Origin: Pseudosulfitobacter sp. DSM 107133
GTDB lineage: Bacteria; Pseudomonadota; Alphaproteobacteria; Rhodobacterales; Rhodobacteraceae
Direction: 5' to 3'
DNA length: 64,000 nucleotides
Assembly: GCF_022788695.1 (NCBI RefSeq)
Contig: NZ_CP085154.1
Location: forward strand, 868,001 to 932,000
Shown: positions 14,731 to 38,485 of the stretch, piece after piece
Position numbering within the stretch: the stretch's first letter is position 1
How the letters are laid out: each line of letters begins with the position of its first letter
Made by a program: the position numbers and the translations under genes
The notes under the pieces: generated by a model
What the model was told of the DNA's origin: nothing
Seen by the model: the letters and a program-made list of their open reading frames with translations, nothing else
Databases searched by the model: none

Positions 14731-15276
14731 GGTTAAGTCACTTTGGGGCTTATTTTGTTGAAAAACTCTTCCTTGATTGCGGCCTGAACTACTGATTCAA
14801 TTCCCGTATTGTGGGGGGATTTGGCGATGTTGGGACCGAGGCAAGAAGCGCAAGCGGCACTGTTTTACGAGTTTTCGCTGGAAGATCATGTCCCACAAGA
14901 TCACCTGCTGCGATCCATTGATCGTTTCGTTGACCTGAGCGGCATTCGCGCCCATCTGGCGGATTTCTACAGCCACACGGGCCGCCCTTCCGTCGATCCT
15001 GAGCTACTGATCCGCATGTTGCTGGTCGGATATTGCTTTGGCATCCGGTCGGAACGACGGCTCTGTGAGGAAGTGCATTTGAACCTGGCTTATCGCTGGT
15101 TCTGCCGTCTCGATCTGAACGATCGCATTCCAGACCATTCGACCTTCTCAAAGAACCGCCATGGCCGTTTCCGCGAGAGCGAGCTGCTGCGCCATCTGTT
15201 CGAGAAGACAGTTGCACGTTGCATCGAAGAAGGACTTGCCAGCGGGCAGCGCATGGCAGTGGACGCCAGCCTGATC

Positions 15277-15317
15277 CACTGACCGGCAGGGCATTGCGCA
15301 GCGATGTCCCGAGAGGT
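15277..15317 (+). repeat. 41-nt hairpin element, copy A
   Basis: Inserted between ATC and GAA codons of the transposase. It contains CCGGCAG, then a hairpin with a GCA triloop (GGCATTGC-GCA-GCGATGTCC, one bulged T), then CGAGAGG. It brings a stop codon and a frameshift. Excision restores Leu-Ile-Glu-Ala-Asp. Confidence 0.85.
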
Positions 15318-15686
15318 GAAGCGGATGCGAACAAGCAAAACTCAACACCGAAGGAAGAATGGGATGCGTCGTCCATCGATGCCGTAGATGCACCCCGCGC
15401 AGTCCGAGAGTATCTCGACACGCTCGACAAGGCAGCCTTCGGCGCGGCGAGCGATGTTCAACCCAAGTTCACCTCGCATTCCGATCCTGCTAGTCAGTGG
15501 ACAGCAGCCCGCAAAGGCCCTGCATTCTTTAGCTATTCCGACAATTATCTCATCGACACGGATCACGGTGTCATTTTGGACGTCGAAGGCACCCGTTCGA
15601 TCCGGCAAGCCGAGGTTGGATCGACGAAGACCATGCTGACACGGGTGAAAGACAAGTTCGGTCTGGTCCCTGACTGGATGATCGCC

Positions 15687-15727
15687 CCCTCTCGTGACAT
15701 TGCTGCGCAATGCACTGCCGGGCAGTG
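15687..15727 (-). repeat. 41-nt hairpin element, copy B (reverse orientation)
   Basis: Same element on the minus strand: CCGGCAG, hairpin TGCATTGC-GCA-GCAATGTCA, CGAGAGG. The outer stem pairs differ from copy A but still pair. Excision rejoins GCC and GAC and restores the Ala-Asp-Thr-Ala-Tyr motif holding the second catalytic Asp. Confidence 0.85.
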
Positions 15728-15802
15728 GACACAGCCTATGGCTCAGGCCCAATGCTTGGCTGGCTCGTAGATCGCAAGATCGATCCTTACATCCCGGTGA
15801 TC

Positions 15803-15843
15803 CATTGCCCGGCAGGCGATTGCGCAGCAATCTGCCGAGAGGG
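15803..15843 (+). repeat. 41-nt hairpin element, copy C
   Basis: Third copy, forward orientation: CCGGCAG, hairpin GCGATTGC-GCA-GCAATCTGC, CGAGAGG. The stem again shows paired substitutions relative to A and B. Excision gives Pro-Val-Ile-Asp-Lys in frame. Confidence 0.85.
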
Positions 15844-16525
15844 GATAAGGCCGGACGCCCCGACGGCACCTGGACACGCGCAGAGTTCGAATGGGACGCC
15901 GAGAATGATCAATACATCTGCCCCGAAGGTCACGCGCTCAAGCAGTTCCGCCGGAATTACTCTGATCCGAACCGGGGACCGACGGGCAAGGGCACAGCCC
16001 GCTATCGCGCCTTGAAAGAAGTCTGCCAGGTCTGCCCGTCCAAGCAAAAATGCTGCCCCAACGCTGATGCGCGCAAGATCACCCGCGAAGAGCACGAAGA
16101 TGCGCGTCAGGTCGCCAGGGATCTGGCCAAGACCGAAGAATACCAGATCGCGATGAAGCTCAGAAAGAAGGTCGAAATGCTCTTCGCCCACCTCAAACGC
16201 ATTCTCGGGCTGGGACGACTACGATTACGCGGGCCGTGCGGCGCAAATGACGAATTCCTGCTCGCCGCCACCGCCCAAAATCTCCGCAAACTAGCCAAGA
16301 TCCTTCCTGCACCGCAGCAAACACGAAAAGCCTGATCAGAAAGGCGCTTGCGCATTCTTCAGATCGCTATCTGCTGCGGTCGCGAACGGGTGTTTTTCCA
16401 CAAAATCGGCTCGAAGCCGACCTTCGCTGCACCATGCGCGAAGGCCCGGCGTTCCAATTTAGGGCAGTTGCCGACGTGAAGGTCAATTTCGTCTGACGTC
16501 TGACAGTCGCAGTAAAATCCCCGAC

Positions 16526-16588: not shown

Positions 16589-18253
16589 ATGACCCCAATT
16601 CAATCTCTCAAACACCGTTCCGCTGCACTGCGCGAACGGTTCAGCGTTACGCCGGTCGTGCTGACCGCGCTGACAATCGCCTTTGTCCTTTGCGCCGACA
16701 ACGGCAGCTTCTGGACCATTGCCAGCGACGTGTTCGCGGGGCACCCGTTGTCATATGCGGGCTACATGGCGGCTGTTTTCTTTCTGACGCTGGGTGCCTT
16801 CAGCCTGTTTGCCTTTCCGTGGACAGTAAAACCCTTCCTGATCTTCATCGTGATCCTGTCTGCGATGACCTCTTATTACGTTGATACGCTGGGTGTGATC
16901 ATCGACCGAGACATGATCCAGAACATCATGGTCACCACATTTGCGGAATCGCGTCATCTGATCACGTCGGGCTATGTCATCCATATTGTGATCTTCGGCA
17001 TCCTGCCCGCACTTGTGCTGCTTTGGGTGCGCATCAAACCGCAGGGGCGGATCAGGGCCGCGATGATGCCCGTGGTCACCTGCGTACTCAGCTTTGCCCT
17101 GACCGCCGGTTTTCTGATGGGCGACTTCAAATCCTACGCCTCGATACTGCGCGAACGTAAGGATTTCATGAGCAGCTATCAGCCTGGCGCGCCGCTGGTG
17201 GGGGCGATCCGCTATGCCAGAATGATGTCGCATTCGGCCAATGTGGTGGTGGCCAGCACCGGCGCAGATGCCAAGAAGGGGCCGACCTATGACAGGCCGC
17301 ACAAGCCGATGCTGACCATCGTGGTGGCCGGTGAAACCGCGCGCGCCGCCAACTTCAGCCTGAACGGCTATGACGTCGACACCAACCCCGAGCTGGAAAA
17401 GCTGCCTATCGTCAACTTCAGTGACGCCCATTCCTGCGGCACCGCCACCGCAGTGTCACTGCCCTGCATGTTCTCGAAATTCACCCACGACAGCTATTCC
17501 TTTGAAAAGGGTGTATCCAACGAAAACGTGCTGGACGTGCTGGGCCACGCGGGGCTGCATGTGGATTGGTGGGACAACAACACAGGCGACAAAGGCGTGG
17601 CCGAGCGTTTCGATACGCGCATCTTTACCGACCTGAAAAACCCCGAATTCTGCGCCTCGGGCGAATGTATGGACGGAATTTTCATGGATCCGCTGAAAGA
17701 CTACATCGCCTCAATCACTCAGGACACGGTGCTGGTCTTGCACCAGATGGGCAGCCACGGGCCAACCTACTACCAGCGCTATCCAGCTGAATTCGAACGT
17801 TTCACACCGGCCTGCCGCACCGCCGAGTTCAAAAAATGCGCACCTCAGGAAATCATCAACGCCTATGACAACACCATTGCCTATACCGACCACCTGTTGG
17901 CGCAGACCATCGACATGCTGGCAGCACAGGACCGGCTGGACACATCGCTGATCTATATGTCCGACCACGGTGAATCGCTGGGTGAACACGGGCTGTACCT
18001 GCACGGATCGCCCTATTTCATGGCCCCCGACTATCAAACCCACATACCGATGATCCTGTGGATGTCGGACAACTTCAAAACCCGCTTTGCCATTGATGAA
18101 AGCTGCGTGGCCGACAAAAAAGACCAGCGCATGTCGCACGACAACCTGTTCCACTCGCTGCTGGGCATGCTTGACATCGAAACCACCGAGCGCAATCCCG
18201 AACTGGATATCTTTGCGTCCTGCAAAACCACACAAACCCTGGCCGCCAAATGA
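16589..18253 (+). CDS. eptA: Lipid A phosphoethanolamine transferase (EptA/MCR type)
   Basis: A 554-residue inner membrane enzyme that moves phosphoethanolamine from phosphatidylethanolamine to lipid A, lowering negative charge and giving resistance to cationic peptides such as polymyxin. There are about five N-terminal membrane helices up to residue 180, then a periplasmic sulfatase-fold domain. The zinc ligand Glu249 is in VVAGETARAANF and the nucleophile Thr285 is in HSCGTATAVSLPCMFS, matching the MCR-1 pattern. SDHGESLGEHGLYLHGSP holds further metal ligands. It is first in a six-gene operon with lipid recycling genes and a two-component system. The start at 16589 has only a weak ribosome site. 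Confidence 0.93.
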   Translation: MTPIQSLKHRSAALRERFSVTPVVLTALTIAFVLCADNGSFWTIASDVFAGHPLSYAGYMAAVFFLTLGAFSLFAFPWTVKPFLIFIVILSAMTSYYVDTLGVIIDRDMIQNIMVTTFAESRHLITSGYVIHIVIFGILPALVLLWVRIKPQGRIRAAMMPVVTCVLSFALTAGFLMGDFKSYASILRERKDFMSSYQPGAPLVGAIRYARMMSHSANVVVASTGADAKKGPTYDRPHKPMLTIVVAGETARAANFSLNGYDVDTNPELEKLPIVNFSDAHSCGTATAVSLPCMFSKFTHDSYSFEKGVSNENVLDVLGHAGLHVDWWDNNTGDKGVAERFDTRIFTDLKNPEFCASGECMDGIFMDPLKDYIASITQDTVLVLHQMGSHGPTYYQRYPAEFERFTPACRTAEFKKCAPQEIINAYDNTIAYTDHLLAQTIDMLAAQDRLDTSLIYMSDHGESLGEHGLYLHGSPYFMAPDYQTHIPMILWMSDNFKTRFAIDESCVADKKDQRMSHDNLFHSLLGMLDIETTERNPELDIFASCKTTQTLAAK

Positions 18254-18651
18254 ACAACGACACAACATCACCCCGCCCCAAACCCGCGCGCGTCACCGGT
18301 GTGGCGCATCTGTTCGCTGCCGCAGGCTATTCTGTCGGGGGCATACGAAGACTGTGGCAGGAAACCGCGTTTCGGCATATCGTGACGGCTCTGCCCGTCT
18401 GCGGTGTGCTGCTGTACGTCGTGGGCGCAAATCTTGTTGACTACTGCGTCTTGTTAATTCTGTTTTCCTGCCTCGTTGCGGTCGAGGCGTTGAACACGGC
18501 AATCGAATGTATTGTCGACCATCTGGCCCCCCAATGGGAGGAGTTCGCACGCGATGCAAAAGACCTTGGGTCCCTTGCGACGATGTGTCTGCTGTTTGCC
18601 AATGGTGTTTTTCTGGGCGCGGTGGTTTTACGTTCCTATGCTCTGACCTGA
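18250..18651 (+). CDS. dgkA: Diacylglycerol kinase
   Basis: A 133-residue integral membrane kinase of the bacterial DgkA family, with three helices and the signature [16 protein letters not shown] carrying the catalytic Glu and Asn, followed by [11 protein letters not shown]. It phosphorylates diacylglycerol to phosphatidic acid. EptA releases diacylglycerol for every phosphoethanolamine moved, so the ATGA overlap with eptA makes biochemical sense: this enzyme clears the by-product. The N-terminal 20 residues form a basic cytoplasmic tail. Confidence 0.93.
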
Positions 18652-18661
18652 AAGTTTACCG

Positions 18662-19354
18662 ATGAATATGCTTAAGATTGTCGCGGTTCCCATGCACAAA
18701 GAGGGCCGCAAATTCGTGGCCATCTTTGCCGCGATTGCCGTGGTCCTTGGATTGCTATGGGCCCCCCTGTTCTGGATCGGCGCGGGCGTGACCGTCTGGT
18801 GCTATTACTTCTTCCGCGATCCGGTGCGGGTGATCCCGCAACAGCCCGGCCTTGTGGTGTCGCCCGCCGACGGCATCGTGTCGCTGATTCAGGATGTCGT
18901 CCCCGAAGAGGGCCTTGGCCTTGGCACCGAGCCACTGACGCGGGTGTCGGTGTTCATGAACGTCTTCAACTGTCATGTGAACCGCGCGCCCATCGCGGGC
19001 AAGGTGCTGCATATCATCTACCATCACGGCAAATTCCTGAATGCCTCGCTGGACAAGGCCAGCATTCACAACGAACGCAACAGCCTGACCATCGAAGCGC
19101 CCGACGGCACCCGCATCGGCGTGGTGCAGATCGCGGGCCTTGTGGCGCGCCGCATCGTCTGTTTCGTGAAAGAGGGCGACAGCCTTGAGGCCGGTCACCG
19201 CTTTGGCCTGATCCGTTTTGGCAGCCGTCTGGATGTCTACCTGCCCGCGGGCGTGTCGCCATTGGTCAGCGTCGGGCAGACAGCCGTGGCCGGTGAAACC
19301 ATTCTGGCCGATCTGGCCGACCCCACACGCCAGCGTGGTGGTATCGCCGAATGA
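18662..19354 (+). CDS. psd: Phosphatidylserine decarboxylase
   Basis: A 230-residue proenzyme of the short (type A) family. The self-cleavage site is the Gly-Ser in [11 protein letters not shown] near residue 186, which yields the pyruvoyl group on the new alpha chain. One or two hydrophobic segments lie near the start ([20 protein letters not shown]). SPADGIVS and [12 protein letters not shown] are conserved family blocks. It makes phosphatidylethanolamine, the donor lipid used by EptA. The gene starts 10 bases after dgkA and overlaps pssA by four bases. Confidence 0.95.
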
Positions 19355-20109
19355 CCGAACCCGCCCCCCGACTGAAACTGCGCCATATCGTGCCCAGCAT
19401 GGTCACCGTCTTTGCCATCTGCGCGGGCATGACCTCGATCCGCATGAGTCTGGACGGGCGCATCGAAATGGCACTGTATTTCATCCTGATCGCGGTGTTT
19501 CTGGACGCCGCCGACGGCAAACTGGCGCGGTTTCTGGACACCGCCAGCCCGTTCGGGGCCGAACTGGACACGCTGGCGGATTTCTTCAACTTCGGGATCG
19601 TGCCGGGCCTGCTGCTGTACAACACCCTGTATATTGGGACGCCCGATGCCAATCTGGGTTTTCTGGCCTGTCTGGTTCTGGCGGTCTGCTGCGCGCTGCG
19701 GCTGGCGCGGTTCAACCTGTCGGTCAAAAGCACCGATGTCGCCCTGAAAAAAGACGACCATTTCGTCGGTGTGCCGGCCCCCGCGCTGGCCTGTCTGGCG
19801 CTGATGCCGGTGTTTATCCACCTCTACGGCTGGCCCGACAGCGATTTCCCGTTCCTGCGCGCGGCCTATATCATCGGCGTCGGTTTTCTGGCGATCAGCA
19901 CGATCCCCACGATCTCGATCAAACACGCCAGCATCAAACGCGCGCACCTGTCGTTCGCTTTGGTTGGAGCGGTGGCGCTTTTGGTGTGCCTGATGGTGTA
20001 CCCGTGGCCCACGTTGATTGTCGCCAACTGTCTCTATCTGGCGTCCTTGCCCTATTCCTATCTGAAGCAGGAAAAGAAAAAGCCGGATCATGCGCATTCT
20101 GCTGATTGA
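19351..20109 (+). CDS. pssA: CDP-diacylglycerol-serine O-phosphatidyltransferase
   Basis: A 252-residue membrane enzyme of the CDP-alcohol phosphatidyltransferase family. The signature with its spaced Asp residues is visible around residue 50: [20 protein letters not shown] and then LDTLADF. It joins serine to CDP-diacylglycerol to make phosphatidylserine, which Psd then decarboxylates. About seven hydrophobic helices are expected. The short basic tail ([11 protein letters not shown]) overlaps the start of the regulator gene by 20 bases. Confidence 0.95.
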
Positions 20110-27868: not shown

Positions 27869-28813
27869 ATGACGAAGATGATCAACGATACCATCGGCAT
27901 CGACATCTCGAAAGCGCATCTTGACGCGCACCGGCTCAGCACCGCAACCCACGCCCGGTTCGACAATACCGCGACAGGCCTGCGCGCCTTCGAGCGCTGG
28001 TTGGGGCAGACAACGCCGGAGCGCGTGGTCTTCGAGCCCACCGGCCCCTACCACCGACGCCTCGAGAGCCATTTCTCAGGCCGCCTGCCGCTCGTCAAGG
28101 TGAACCCGCTGCAGGCCCGCCGCTTCGCGCAGGCCCACGGCACACGCGCTAAGACCGACGCGGTCGATGCCCGCATGCTCGCGCTCATGGGGCGCGCGCT
28201 GGAGCTGGTTCCGGACCAGCCAACCGACCCCAAACAGCGTGAAATCAAGGAGTTGCATGTCGCCCGCACCGGGCTGGTGCGGGATCGTACCGCGCTGATG
28301 AACCGCCTTGGCACGCAACAGCTCGACGTGACCCGCCGCCTGACCCGGGCACGCCTGCGTCAGGTCAACCACCAGATCGACAGGCTTAACGCCGAAATCG
28401 AACGGCGAAACCGCGATTGCCCGGAACGCGCCAGGGCAATCGGCATTCTCACCTCGATCCCCGGGATCGGTGCCATCACCGCACGGGCGCTGCTCAGCGA
28501 ATGCCCCGAGATCGGCACTCTGGGGTCAAAGCAGATCGCGGCGCTCGCAGGTCTCGCGCCGATCACGTGTCAGTCCGGTCAGTGGAGCGGAAAGGCCCAC
28601 ATCCAGGGCGGGCGCAGGCTCCTGCGCGAGAGCCTGTTCATGCCCGCCCTCGTCGCCATGAAGCGAAACCCCGATCTGAGCCAGAAATACGATGCCCTCA
28701 GAGCCGCCGGAAAACCCCACAAGGTCGCGCTCGCCGTCCTCATGCGAAAACTCCTGATCCTCGCAAACACTCTCATAAGCGAAAACAGAGAATGGACACC
28801 AAAACACCCTTGA
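27869..28813 (+). CDS. IS110-family transposase (DEDD recombinase), copy 1
   Basis: A 314-residue recombinase. The RuvC-like DEDD domain opens with DTIGIDISKAHLDAH; GRLPLVKVNPLQARRFAQA and KTDAVDARMLALMG carry further acidic residues. The C-terminal IS116/IS110 domain has LTSIPGIGAITARALLSE and LAGLAPITCQSGQWSGKAHI with the catalytic Ser region. The ATG at 27869 is immediately after the RNA-coding region; the ATG at 27878 (MINDTIGID) has a better-spaced AAGGA. It appears intact and the copy at 37541-38485 encodes the same protein. Confidence 0.93.
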   Translation: MTKMINDTIGIDISKAHLDAHRLSTATHARFDNTATGLRAFERWLGQTTPERVVFEPTGPYHRRLESHFSGRLPLVKVNPLQARRFAQAHGTRAKTDAVDARMLALMGRALELVPDQPTDPKQREIKELHVARTGLVRDRTALMNRLGTQQLDVTRRLTRARLRQVNHQIDRLNAEIERRNRDCPERARAIGILTSIPGIGAITARALLSECPEIGTLGSKQIAALAGLAPITCQSGQWSGKAHIQGGRRLLRESLFMPALVAMKRNPDLSQKYDALRAAGKPHKVALAVLMRKLLILANTLISENREWTPKHP

Positions 28814-37540: not shown

Positions 37541-38485
37541 TCAAGGGTGTTTTGGTGTCCATTCTCTGTTTTCGCTTATGAGAGTGTTTGCGAGGATCAG
37601 GAGTTTTCGCATGAGGACGGCGAGCGCGACCTTGTGGGGTTTTCCGGCGGCTCTGAGGGCATCGTATTTCTGGCTCAGATCGGGGTTTCGCTTCATGGCG
37701 ACGAGGGCGGGCATGAACAGGCTCTCGCGCAGGAGCCTGCGCCCGCCCTGGATGTGGGCCTTTCCGCTCCACTGACCGGACTGACACGTGATCGGCGCGA
37801 GACCTGCGAGCGCCGCGATCTGCTTTGACCCCAGAGTGCCGATCTCGGGGCATTCGCTGAGCAGCGCCCGTGCGGTGATGGCACCGATCCCGGGGATCGA
37901 GGTGAGAATGCCGATTGCCCTGGCGCGTTCCGGGCAATCGCGGTTTCGCCGTTCGATTTCGGCGTTAAGCCTGTCGATCTGGTGGTTGACCTGACGCAGG
38001 CGTGCCCGGGTCAGGCGGCGGGTCACGTCGAGCTGTTGCGTGCCAAGGCGGTTCATCAGCGCGGTACGATCCCGCACCAGCCCGGTGCGGGCGACATGCA
38101 ACTCCTTGATTTCACGCTGTTTGGGGTCGGTTGGCTGGTCCGGAACCAGCTCCAGCGCGCGCCCCATGAGCGCGAGCATGCGGGCATCGACCGCGTCGGT
38201 CTTAGCGCGTGTGCCGTGGGCCTGCGCGAAGCGGCGGGCCTGCAGCGGGTTCACCTTGACGAGCGGCAGGCGGCCTGAGAAATGGCTCTCGAGGCGTCGG
38301 TGGTAGGGGCCGGTGGGCTCGAAGACCACGCGCTCCGGCGTTGTCTGCCCCAACCAGCGCTCGAAGGCGCGCAGGCCTGTCGCGGTATTGTCGAACCGGG
38401 CGTGGGTTGCGGTGCTGAGCCGGTGCGCGTCAAGATGCGCTTTCGAGATGTCGATGCCGATGGTATCGTTGATCATCTTCGTCAT
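37541..38485 (-). CDS. IS110-family transposase (DEDD recombinase), copy 2
   Basis: Encodes the same 314-residue recombinase as copy 1, with DTIGIDISKAHLDAH at the start and LAGLAPITCQSGQWSGKAHI near residue 235. The lack of coding differences shows recent duplication, and both copies appear competent. Confidence 0.93.
   Translation of the reverse strand: MTKMINDTIGIDISKAHLDAHRLSTATHARFDNTATGLRAFERWLGQTTPERVVFEPTGPYHRRLESHFSGRLPLVKVNPLQARRFAQAHGTRAKTDAVDARMLALMGRALELVPDQPTDPKQREIKELHVARTGLVRDRTALMNRLGTQQLDVTRRLTRARLRQVNHQIDRLNAEIERRNRDCPERARAIGILTSIPGIGAITARALLSECPEIGTLGSKQIAALAGLAPITCQSGQWSGKAHIQGGRRLLRESLFMPALVAMKRNPDLSQKYDALRAAGKPHKVALAVLMRKLLILANTLISENREWTPKHP

Follow-up and report, generated by a model that had tools for sequence, protein, structure and literature searches.

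Hairpin elements of about 41 nt form a large, dispersed family that is widespread in the bacterial family of Pseudosulfitobacter sp. DSM 107133, whose genome supplied the 64,000-nt stretch of DNA analyzed here (the window). We consider it probable that they are very short non-autonomous mobile DNA hairpins, which are borne by insertion sequences (IS) and inactivate transposases. The element family is apparently undescribed: the sequence-only reading of the window knew of no description in Rhodobacterales, and we found none in open-licence PubMed Central, where literal sequence pieces of the element were also without a match. Their small size seems to have let these mobile hairpins go unnoticed, and they pose a testable question, namely what moves non-coding 41-nt DNA, and why into transposases. 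Their hosts are marine bacteria related to Roseobacter and Rhodobacter, and the cultured marine bacteria Dinoroseobacter shibae and Phaeobacter porticola hold multicopy examples.

Three insertions in an IS1182-type transposase gene

Within the window, three elements of 41 nt each interrupt an IS1182-type transposase gene on the forward strand (14809..16335; Pfam DUF772 in its first block). The surrounding IS probably extends from 14745 to 16412 on the same strand, with similar ends, GGGGCTTATTTTGTTGAAAAACTC and, inverted, GAGCCGATTTTGTGGAAAAACA, which were read by eye and are similar in the relative L002. Copy 1 (15277..15317, forward strand, CACTGACC..GAGAGGT) stands between the transposase codons ATC and GAA and is also matched by the detecting pattern; copy 2 (15687..15727, reverse strand, CACTGCCC..GAGAGGG) lies immediately 5' of the Asp codon in M-I-A-D-T-A-Y-G; and copy 3 (15803..15843, forward strand, CATTGCCC..GAGAGGG) separates ATC from GA(C/T). 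Their coordinates, the 41-nt length, the reversed middle copy, the GCA loop, the bulged T and the compensatory stem changes all proved to be as the sequence-only reading had described them, and a 31-base pattern with up to three mismatches allowed gave two matches in the window and none in 100 shuffles. Comparison with intact IS1182 relatives, which that reading had proposed, revealed empty sites at all three points: two intact copies in the same genome (L002, near C1:716,851, and one near 3,007,000) lack exactly these three stretches, with alignment gaps of 41, and the other gaps fall solely outside the gene (in the distant copy, a single-base gap 17 nt 5' of the probable start codon, plus gaps at the ends). 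Insertion has simply opened the sites ATC|GAA, ATC|GA(C/T) and TC|GG (the last one that of the reversed copy), without target duplication. An IS1182-type copy in genome G055 (L282) carries a similar element, apparently at the copy 3 site as judged by eye. Directly 3' of the window IS (16589-20109), translations resemble what we take to be phosphoethanolamine transferase, diacylglycerol kinase and phosphatidylserine decarboxylase and synthase.

The window copy is 91.3% identical to L002, with 18, 11 and 94 differences at codon positions 1, 2 and 3, and set against the 472-codon open frame of L002 it contains no in-frame stop outside the inserts. Exact removal of the elements yields a single 474-codon frame across the three junctions, and removal one base off at most 206 codons; the automated element rule applied to this IS flagged one spurious fourth element besides the three real ones. 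When codon changes are polarized with the third copy, 35 synonymous and 4 nonsynonymous changes fall on the window branch, and 37 and 3 on the L002 branch. Since the selection pattern of the window branch is like that of the L002 branch, the three insertions must either have occurred very recently or leave the gene active.

Distribution, fold and target site of the family

The sequence-only reading had made its proposal depend on copies in other genomes, and these are abundant: 243 raw copies reduced to 233 with at most four mismatches, and the copies flanked on either side by 45 nt or more gave 200 distinct contexts (40-nt flanks less than 80% alike). All 233 come from genomes of the window's family and from records that are mostly Rhodobacterales, and the many copies together with the empty sites support the proposal of a mobile palindromic element in Rhodobacterales with its own sequence and under structural constraint. 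A single pattern finds 13 copies in the window's own genome, comprising the three in the window IS, nine in a multicopy MITE-like repeat and one on contig C3, and further copies have other stems (e.g., C1:1730555, C2:217202 and C3:5449). The MITE-like repeat, of about 350 bp, occurs in at least nine copies (C1:155002, 531565, 1274219, 1730384, 2492127, 2638997 and 3519362; C2:16965 and 217009) with one element each, or two in some; its ends resemble by eye those of an IS427-type IS, suggesting that the element was amplified there as MITE cargo. Contig C3 (L249) also holds two elements with other stems at 1711 and 2447, about 740 bp apart.

Across a sample of the window's family, 63 of 295 genomes matched with at most two mismatches and the reversed control pattern matched none; at least one of these matches is probably due to chance, namely L022, whose stretch gives a ParB-type match. 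A scan of named genomes gave at least 120 matching stretches, and the 80 titles listed are those of genera known to belong to Rhodobacterales and of alphaproteobacterial or Rhodobacterales metagenome bins, plus one "Enemella" record. This record (JAFKDC010000007.1, L135), titled Enemella evansiae, carries elements, and its organism label is probably wrong. With a loose pattern, 28 of 385 genomes matched in a class-wide sample (four of them from the window's own family), compared to 13 for the backward control. Among the class-wide matches listed from outside that family, uninterrupted 8-pair stems fill the interval at two of three places in G487 and at both places in G409, a stem of 6 pairs is present on one side in G441, and weak, interrupted folds are all that several others give; a cruder stem rule passes 10 of the 38 matches listed and 6 of 8 own-family examples. 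The phylum-wide sample matched in 12 of 299 genomes, six of them from the own family, and an uninterrupted stem was found in none of the six matches from outside it. A search of phage records gave no match at E 0.01.

The element consists of CAYTG, three basal pairs (CCC/GGG), of which the outermost covaries, an internal 4x4 loop (GGCA/GAGA) and a freely variable stem, mostly of 9 bp with a bulged T, which carries a loop of about 3 nt. The consensus of its 5' side is CACTGCCCGGCAG, in which the GTAG tag of a hairpin foot is not present. The ends are constant and the stem is variable; the constancy of loop and ends is partly imposed, since the loop region and portions of the two ends are prescribed by the detecting pattern, which leaves the stem positions free. 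Copies recovered through their ends carry quite different stems, and the length to the end of GAGAGG is 40 nt in 217 of 283 copies and 35 to 44 nt in the rest. A subset of 66 among the 133 distinct elements, selected by visual inspection, shows pairing in 98.0% of the cells of the 9-bp stem, with two-sided changes at seven of the nine pairs; the 103 two-sided cells compare with 28.7 after shuffling, and slid versions of the stem score far lower. Across all 133, each of the nine pairs is formed in 124 to 132 elements. Outside the stem, the strongest covariation among all column pairs links position 6 with the last base, 41 (C-G 169, A-T 10, G-C 4; unpaired 15), which pair in 185 of 200 cases, as against 159 on average and at most 167 after shuffling. 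Thus, both ends belong to one fold that is closed on itself; the remaining two basal pairs are nearly invariant and carry no signal either way. A 5' mini hairpin in the constant part was rejected, as 88% of its cells are paired with no two-sided change. An Rfam scan of window positions 14800-16400 gave four matches up to E 10, none reaching its gathering score, the best being that of a microRNA model, at 30.3 bits out of 75 and E 0.00068.

Insertion is a clean gain without target duplication, in either orientation, that prefers RTC before and G after the element. RTC (A/G-TC) stands 5' of the insertion in 124 of the 200 contexts, as opposed to 3.6% in flanking DNA, and TC in 130 of 200 as opposed to 6.5%, while direct repeats flanking the elements are not above chance (4 observed and 4.6 expected at k=2, 3 and 5.4 at k=3, and 0 and 1.0 at k=4). 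The clean insertion, the closed fold and the use of both strands fit a single-strand DNA chemistry. When 225 copies were sorted into 164 site groups, 28 groups held at least two copies, and 15 of these hold different stem arms, some differing by one base. Six stretches (L188, L180, L111, L126, L143 and L165) contain three to six elements each, some at sites common to several records and with compensated stem changes at the same site. Some same-site groups share rare letters and look as if inherited with the IS, and others may reflect repeated insertion. At one shared site of IS5 type, codons were compared among seven matching sequences, one of which (L049) is unrelated, and the protein is largely conserved in the other six.

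Host genes, interrupted IS elements and competing explanations

Based on similarity groups of the abutting reading frames, in which only the representatives were scanned with Pfam and members were assigned through their group, 161 of the 200 contexts lie in IS-element or integrase genes. These comprise groups of IS3 type (54), IS5 type (38 and 23), IS1182 (7), HTH_32/rve (6), IS91-type Y2 (4), Mutator type (4 and 3), IS66 (4), IS21 type (3 and 3, representing two genes) and phage-type integrase (3), together with nine single or paired assignments, two of them IS66 accessory protein. In 16 of the remaining 39 contexts, a transposase match 38 or more residues long lies no farther than 600 nt away, not counting matches that fall on the element itself, and two of these matches span the element. 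Direct scanning of the abutting pieces (149 of 190) gave 35 families, and among the best 25 of these nSTAND3 alone is not of a transposase, integrase or helix-turn-helix kind; control pieces 2.5 kb away (113 of 140 scanned) gave 78 families, the best 25 of which are mostly of housekeeping or transport type and include two of transposase type. This concentration in the genes of other mobile elements is strong and unexplained, and lay beyond the reach of a reading of a single window. Relative to the best frame, 65 elements are sense and 90 antisense (p 0.054; 155 of 200 contexts counted), where open antisense frames make single orientation calls uncertain.

We then turned to the fate of the interrupted IS elements. 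Plasmid pDSHI04 of D. shibae carries three IS copies that are identical over 919 bp and contain two elements each, and the corresponding Paracoccus relatives measure 837 bp, that is, 919 less two times 41. By eye, the D. shibae frame has a TGA nonsense codon where the Paracoccus relative has a Trp codon, so that movement by its own product is hardly possible under the standard code. The D. shibae genome also holds relatives of insert-free length with 73 to 75% identity. The plasmid gene table used contains no annotated feature for the interrupted IS, and the feature names under the plasmid matches are mostly "none" because this table omits pseudogenes. In P. porticola (G075), an IS3-type element occurs in four copies with 3 to 5 inserts, two of them internally deleted, and G055 has four IS copies with two elements each in opposite orientations. 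As interrupted copies still multiply, one type even with a nonsense codon, movement in trans is likely and offers the simplest reading of these multicopy IS. A total of 73 clusters could be compared with open reading frames from four relatives. Exact removal of the elements gave a single open match of 85% or more in 11 of these clusters, as against 5 when nothing was removed, 3 when one base too few was taken out and 2 when it was one too many; divergence from the four reference frames or stretch ends can also lower this score. The comparison supports the 41-nt boundary and suggests that further decay has affected most interrupted genes. The earlier claim that removal restores the frame every time thus holds for the window gene, and does not extend to the family. 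A stop-to-stop test of single elements (60 of 115 open after exact removal, 57 of 115 without removal and 54 to 57 at wrong offsets) does not discriminate because of open antisense frames.

Taken together, we propose that an insert of 40 to 41 nt, which shifts the frame, would inactivate the transposase, that the hairpin may be cut out or copied as single-stranded DNA, and that some enzyme, none found so far, would join it at RTC/G. Once inside an IS or MITE, the hairpin could travel when an intact relative moves that IS in trans, or by plasmid transfer, which would make IS elements its vehicle between genomes. The weakest of our inferences is that this vehicle effect, combined with loss elsewhere, suffices for the concentration in transposase genes without active targeting; the vehicle effect alone hardly explains the scarcity outside mobile-element genes. 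Left-end searches, in the collected loci and in eight genomes of whose matches a part was retrieved, revealed no evident larger element sharing the left end; taken as a group, the left-end matches in which the right end was missing resembled palindrome artefacts, degenerate copies or chance hits. Among the element-rich genomes, no tested family of mobilizing enzymes is present in all: Y1 transposases occur in 2 of 18 and not in the window's own genome, Y2 in 5 of 20, RVT_1 in 7 of 20 (own genome included; six over the cut-off) and IS110 in 16 of 20. The enzyme may have been lost, or may act from plasmids. Two IS110-type transposase matches lie in the window, at 28445-28690 and 37664-37909, out of 41 in this genome, whereas the number does not exceed 13 in any of the 19 further genomes tested.

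The strongest competitor, to which we assign a small but real chance, is a REP-like element that a Y1 tyrosine transposase of the RAYT or IS200/IS605 type would mobilize in trans. Such an element has a tag at the foot of an imperfect hairpin, moves by single-strand chemistry and makes no target duplication. The architecture and the missing duplication fit, and CGTC-tagged REP families are mostly alphaproteobacterial and likewise without a dedicated transposase (PMC3733652). However, the sparse Y1 distribution given above speaks against such an enzyme, and the elements are not extragenic. IS608 follows a guide-target pairing model, and pairing in this style was rejected: covariation between target and CAYTG over 25 column pairs, with two measures each, reached a best p of 0.0055 uncorrected, which is not convincing. 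It is much less probable still that a host or rival element deliberately puts the hairpin into transposase genes as an active anti-transposon system. In its favor, the elements are concentrated in transposase and recombinase genes that belong to unrelated IS families, and up to six were detected in one cluster (perhaps not all in one gene). Against it, no enzyme or guide was identified, the RTC/G target motif is generic and the counts are inflated by insertions inherited with the IS.

Alternatively, the transposase might still be produced because the 41 nt are excised at the DNA or RNA level or bypassed by the ribosome. Such a processed mini-intron or bypass element finds its best case in the window copy, since the pattern of purifying selection persists on its branch despite three inserts; in addition, the same sites hold different stems that are all able to pair, and interrupted IS occur in multiple copies. 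Yet the elements take both orientations within the window gene and overall, TGA is the second codon inside window copy 1, D. shibae keeps a nonsense codon in three identical IS copies, and exact removal fails to reach 85% in 62 of the 73 clusters, which divergence from the four reference frames may explain in part. On these sequence data, splicing or bypass appears weakly disfavoured and unlikely. It is tempting to speculate that hairpins precisely removed or ignored in expression would leave multi-insert transposases functional, as a minimal 41-nt intron-like or excised element and a throttle on transposition specialized for mobile genes, a notion to which we give an equally low chance. The different stems in 15 same-site groups could point to structural selection in place, which dead cargo would not need. 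Overall, the evidence favors non-autonomous, IS-borne mobile hairpins.

Relation to known mobile hairpins and introns

Rickettsia palindromic elements and byp elements are short palindromes inside genes; the former are in frame and translated, and the latter are skipped by ribosomes. Unlike the Rickettsia elements, the window copies shift the frame by 41 nt and are of mixed orientation, and unlike byp elements the family gives no clear sign of bypass, the indirect signs (orientation, nonsense codon and frame comparison) being mostly against it. The likeness to both that the sequence-only reading had drawn is not supported, given the mixed orientation, the majority of genes not restored by removal and the D. 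shibae nonsense codon. Group II introns insert without target duplication, but the element differs from them by its 41 nt, its two orientations and the lack of a ribozyme or reverse transcriptase. In bacteria, these introns likewise lie mostly outside housekeeping genes and often amid other mobile DNA (PMC4424553). A DDE-type MITE is a poor match too, because the direct repeats are not above chance and the element ends pair over 3 bp only. We know of no sequence relation between the element and the GC clusters of yeast mitochondria. The mitochondrial GC42 is a 42-nt palindromic mobile element with diversifying sequence and an unresolved mechanism (PMC4478555), and it resembles our element in size, palindrome and diversification, whereas GC clusters have a putative target duplication (AG) and a mitochondrial location.

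GTAG and CGTC REP elements are dispersed hairpins of 20-40 nt with a short foot tag and many stem variants, and RPE-4 and RPE-6 are listed among the CGTC repeats (PMC3733652). The hairpin with a foot tag, the variable stems and the dispersal are thus shared with our element, which differs in its CAYTG tag, its 4x4 GGCA/GAGA loop, its clean insertion after RTC and its location mostly inside transposase genes. Against the CGTC class (CGTC tag, 8-9 bp stem, 4-5 nt loop and CCA tail), the stem length fits, but the tag, the 3-nt loop (in the 40-41 nt class) and the tail do not. In contrast to the GTAG REP/RAYT system, most tested carriers are without a Y1 gene, and unlike the extragenic GTAG REPs the element sits in IS or integrase genes in the 161 contexts counted above. 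The element therefore works like a mobile hairpin of the REP or GC-cluster type, yet fails defining tests of the REP classes.
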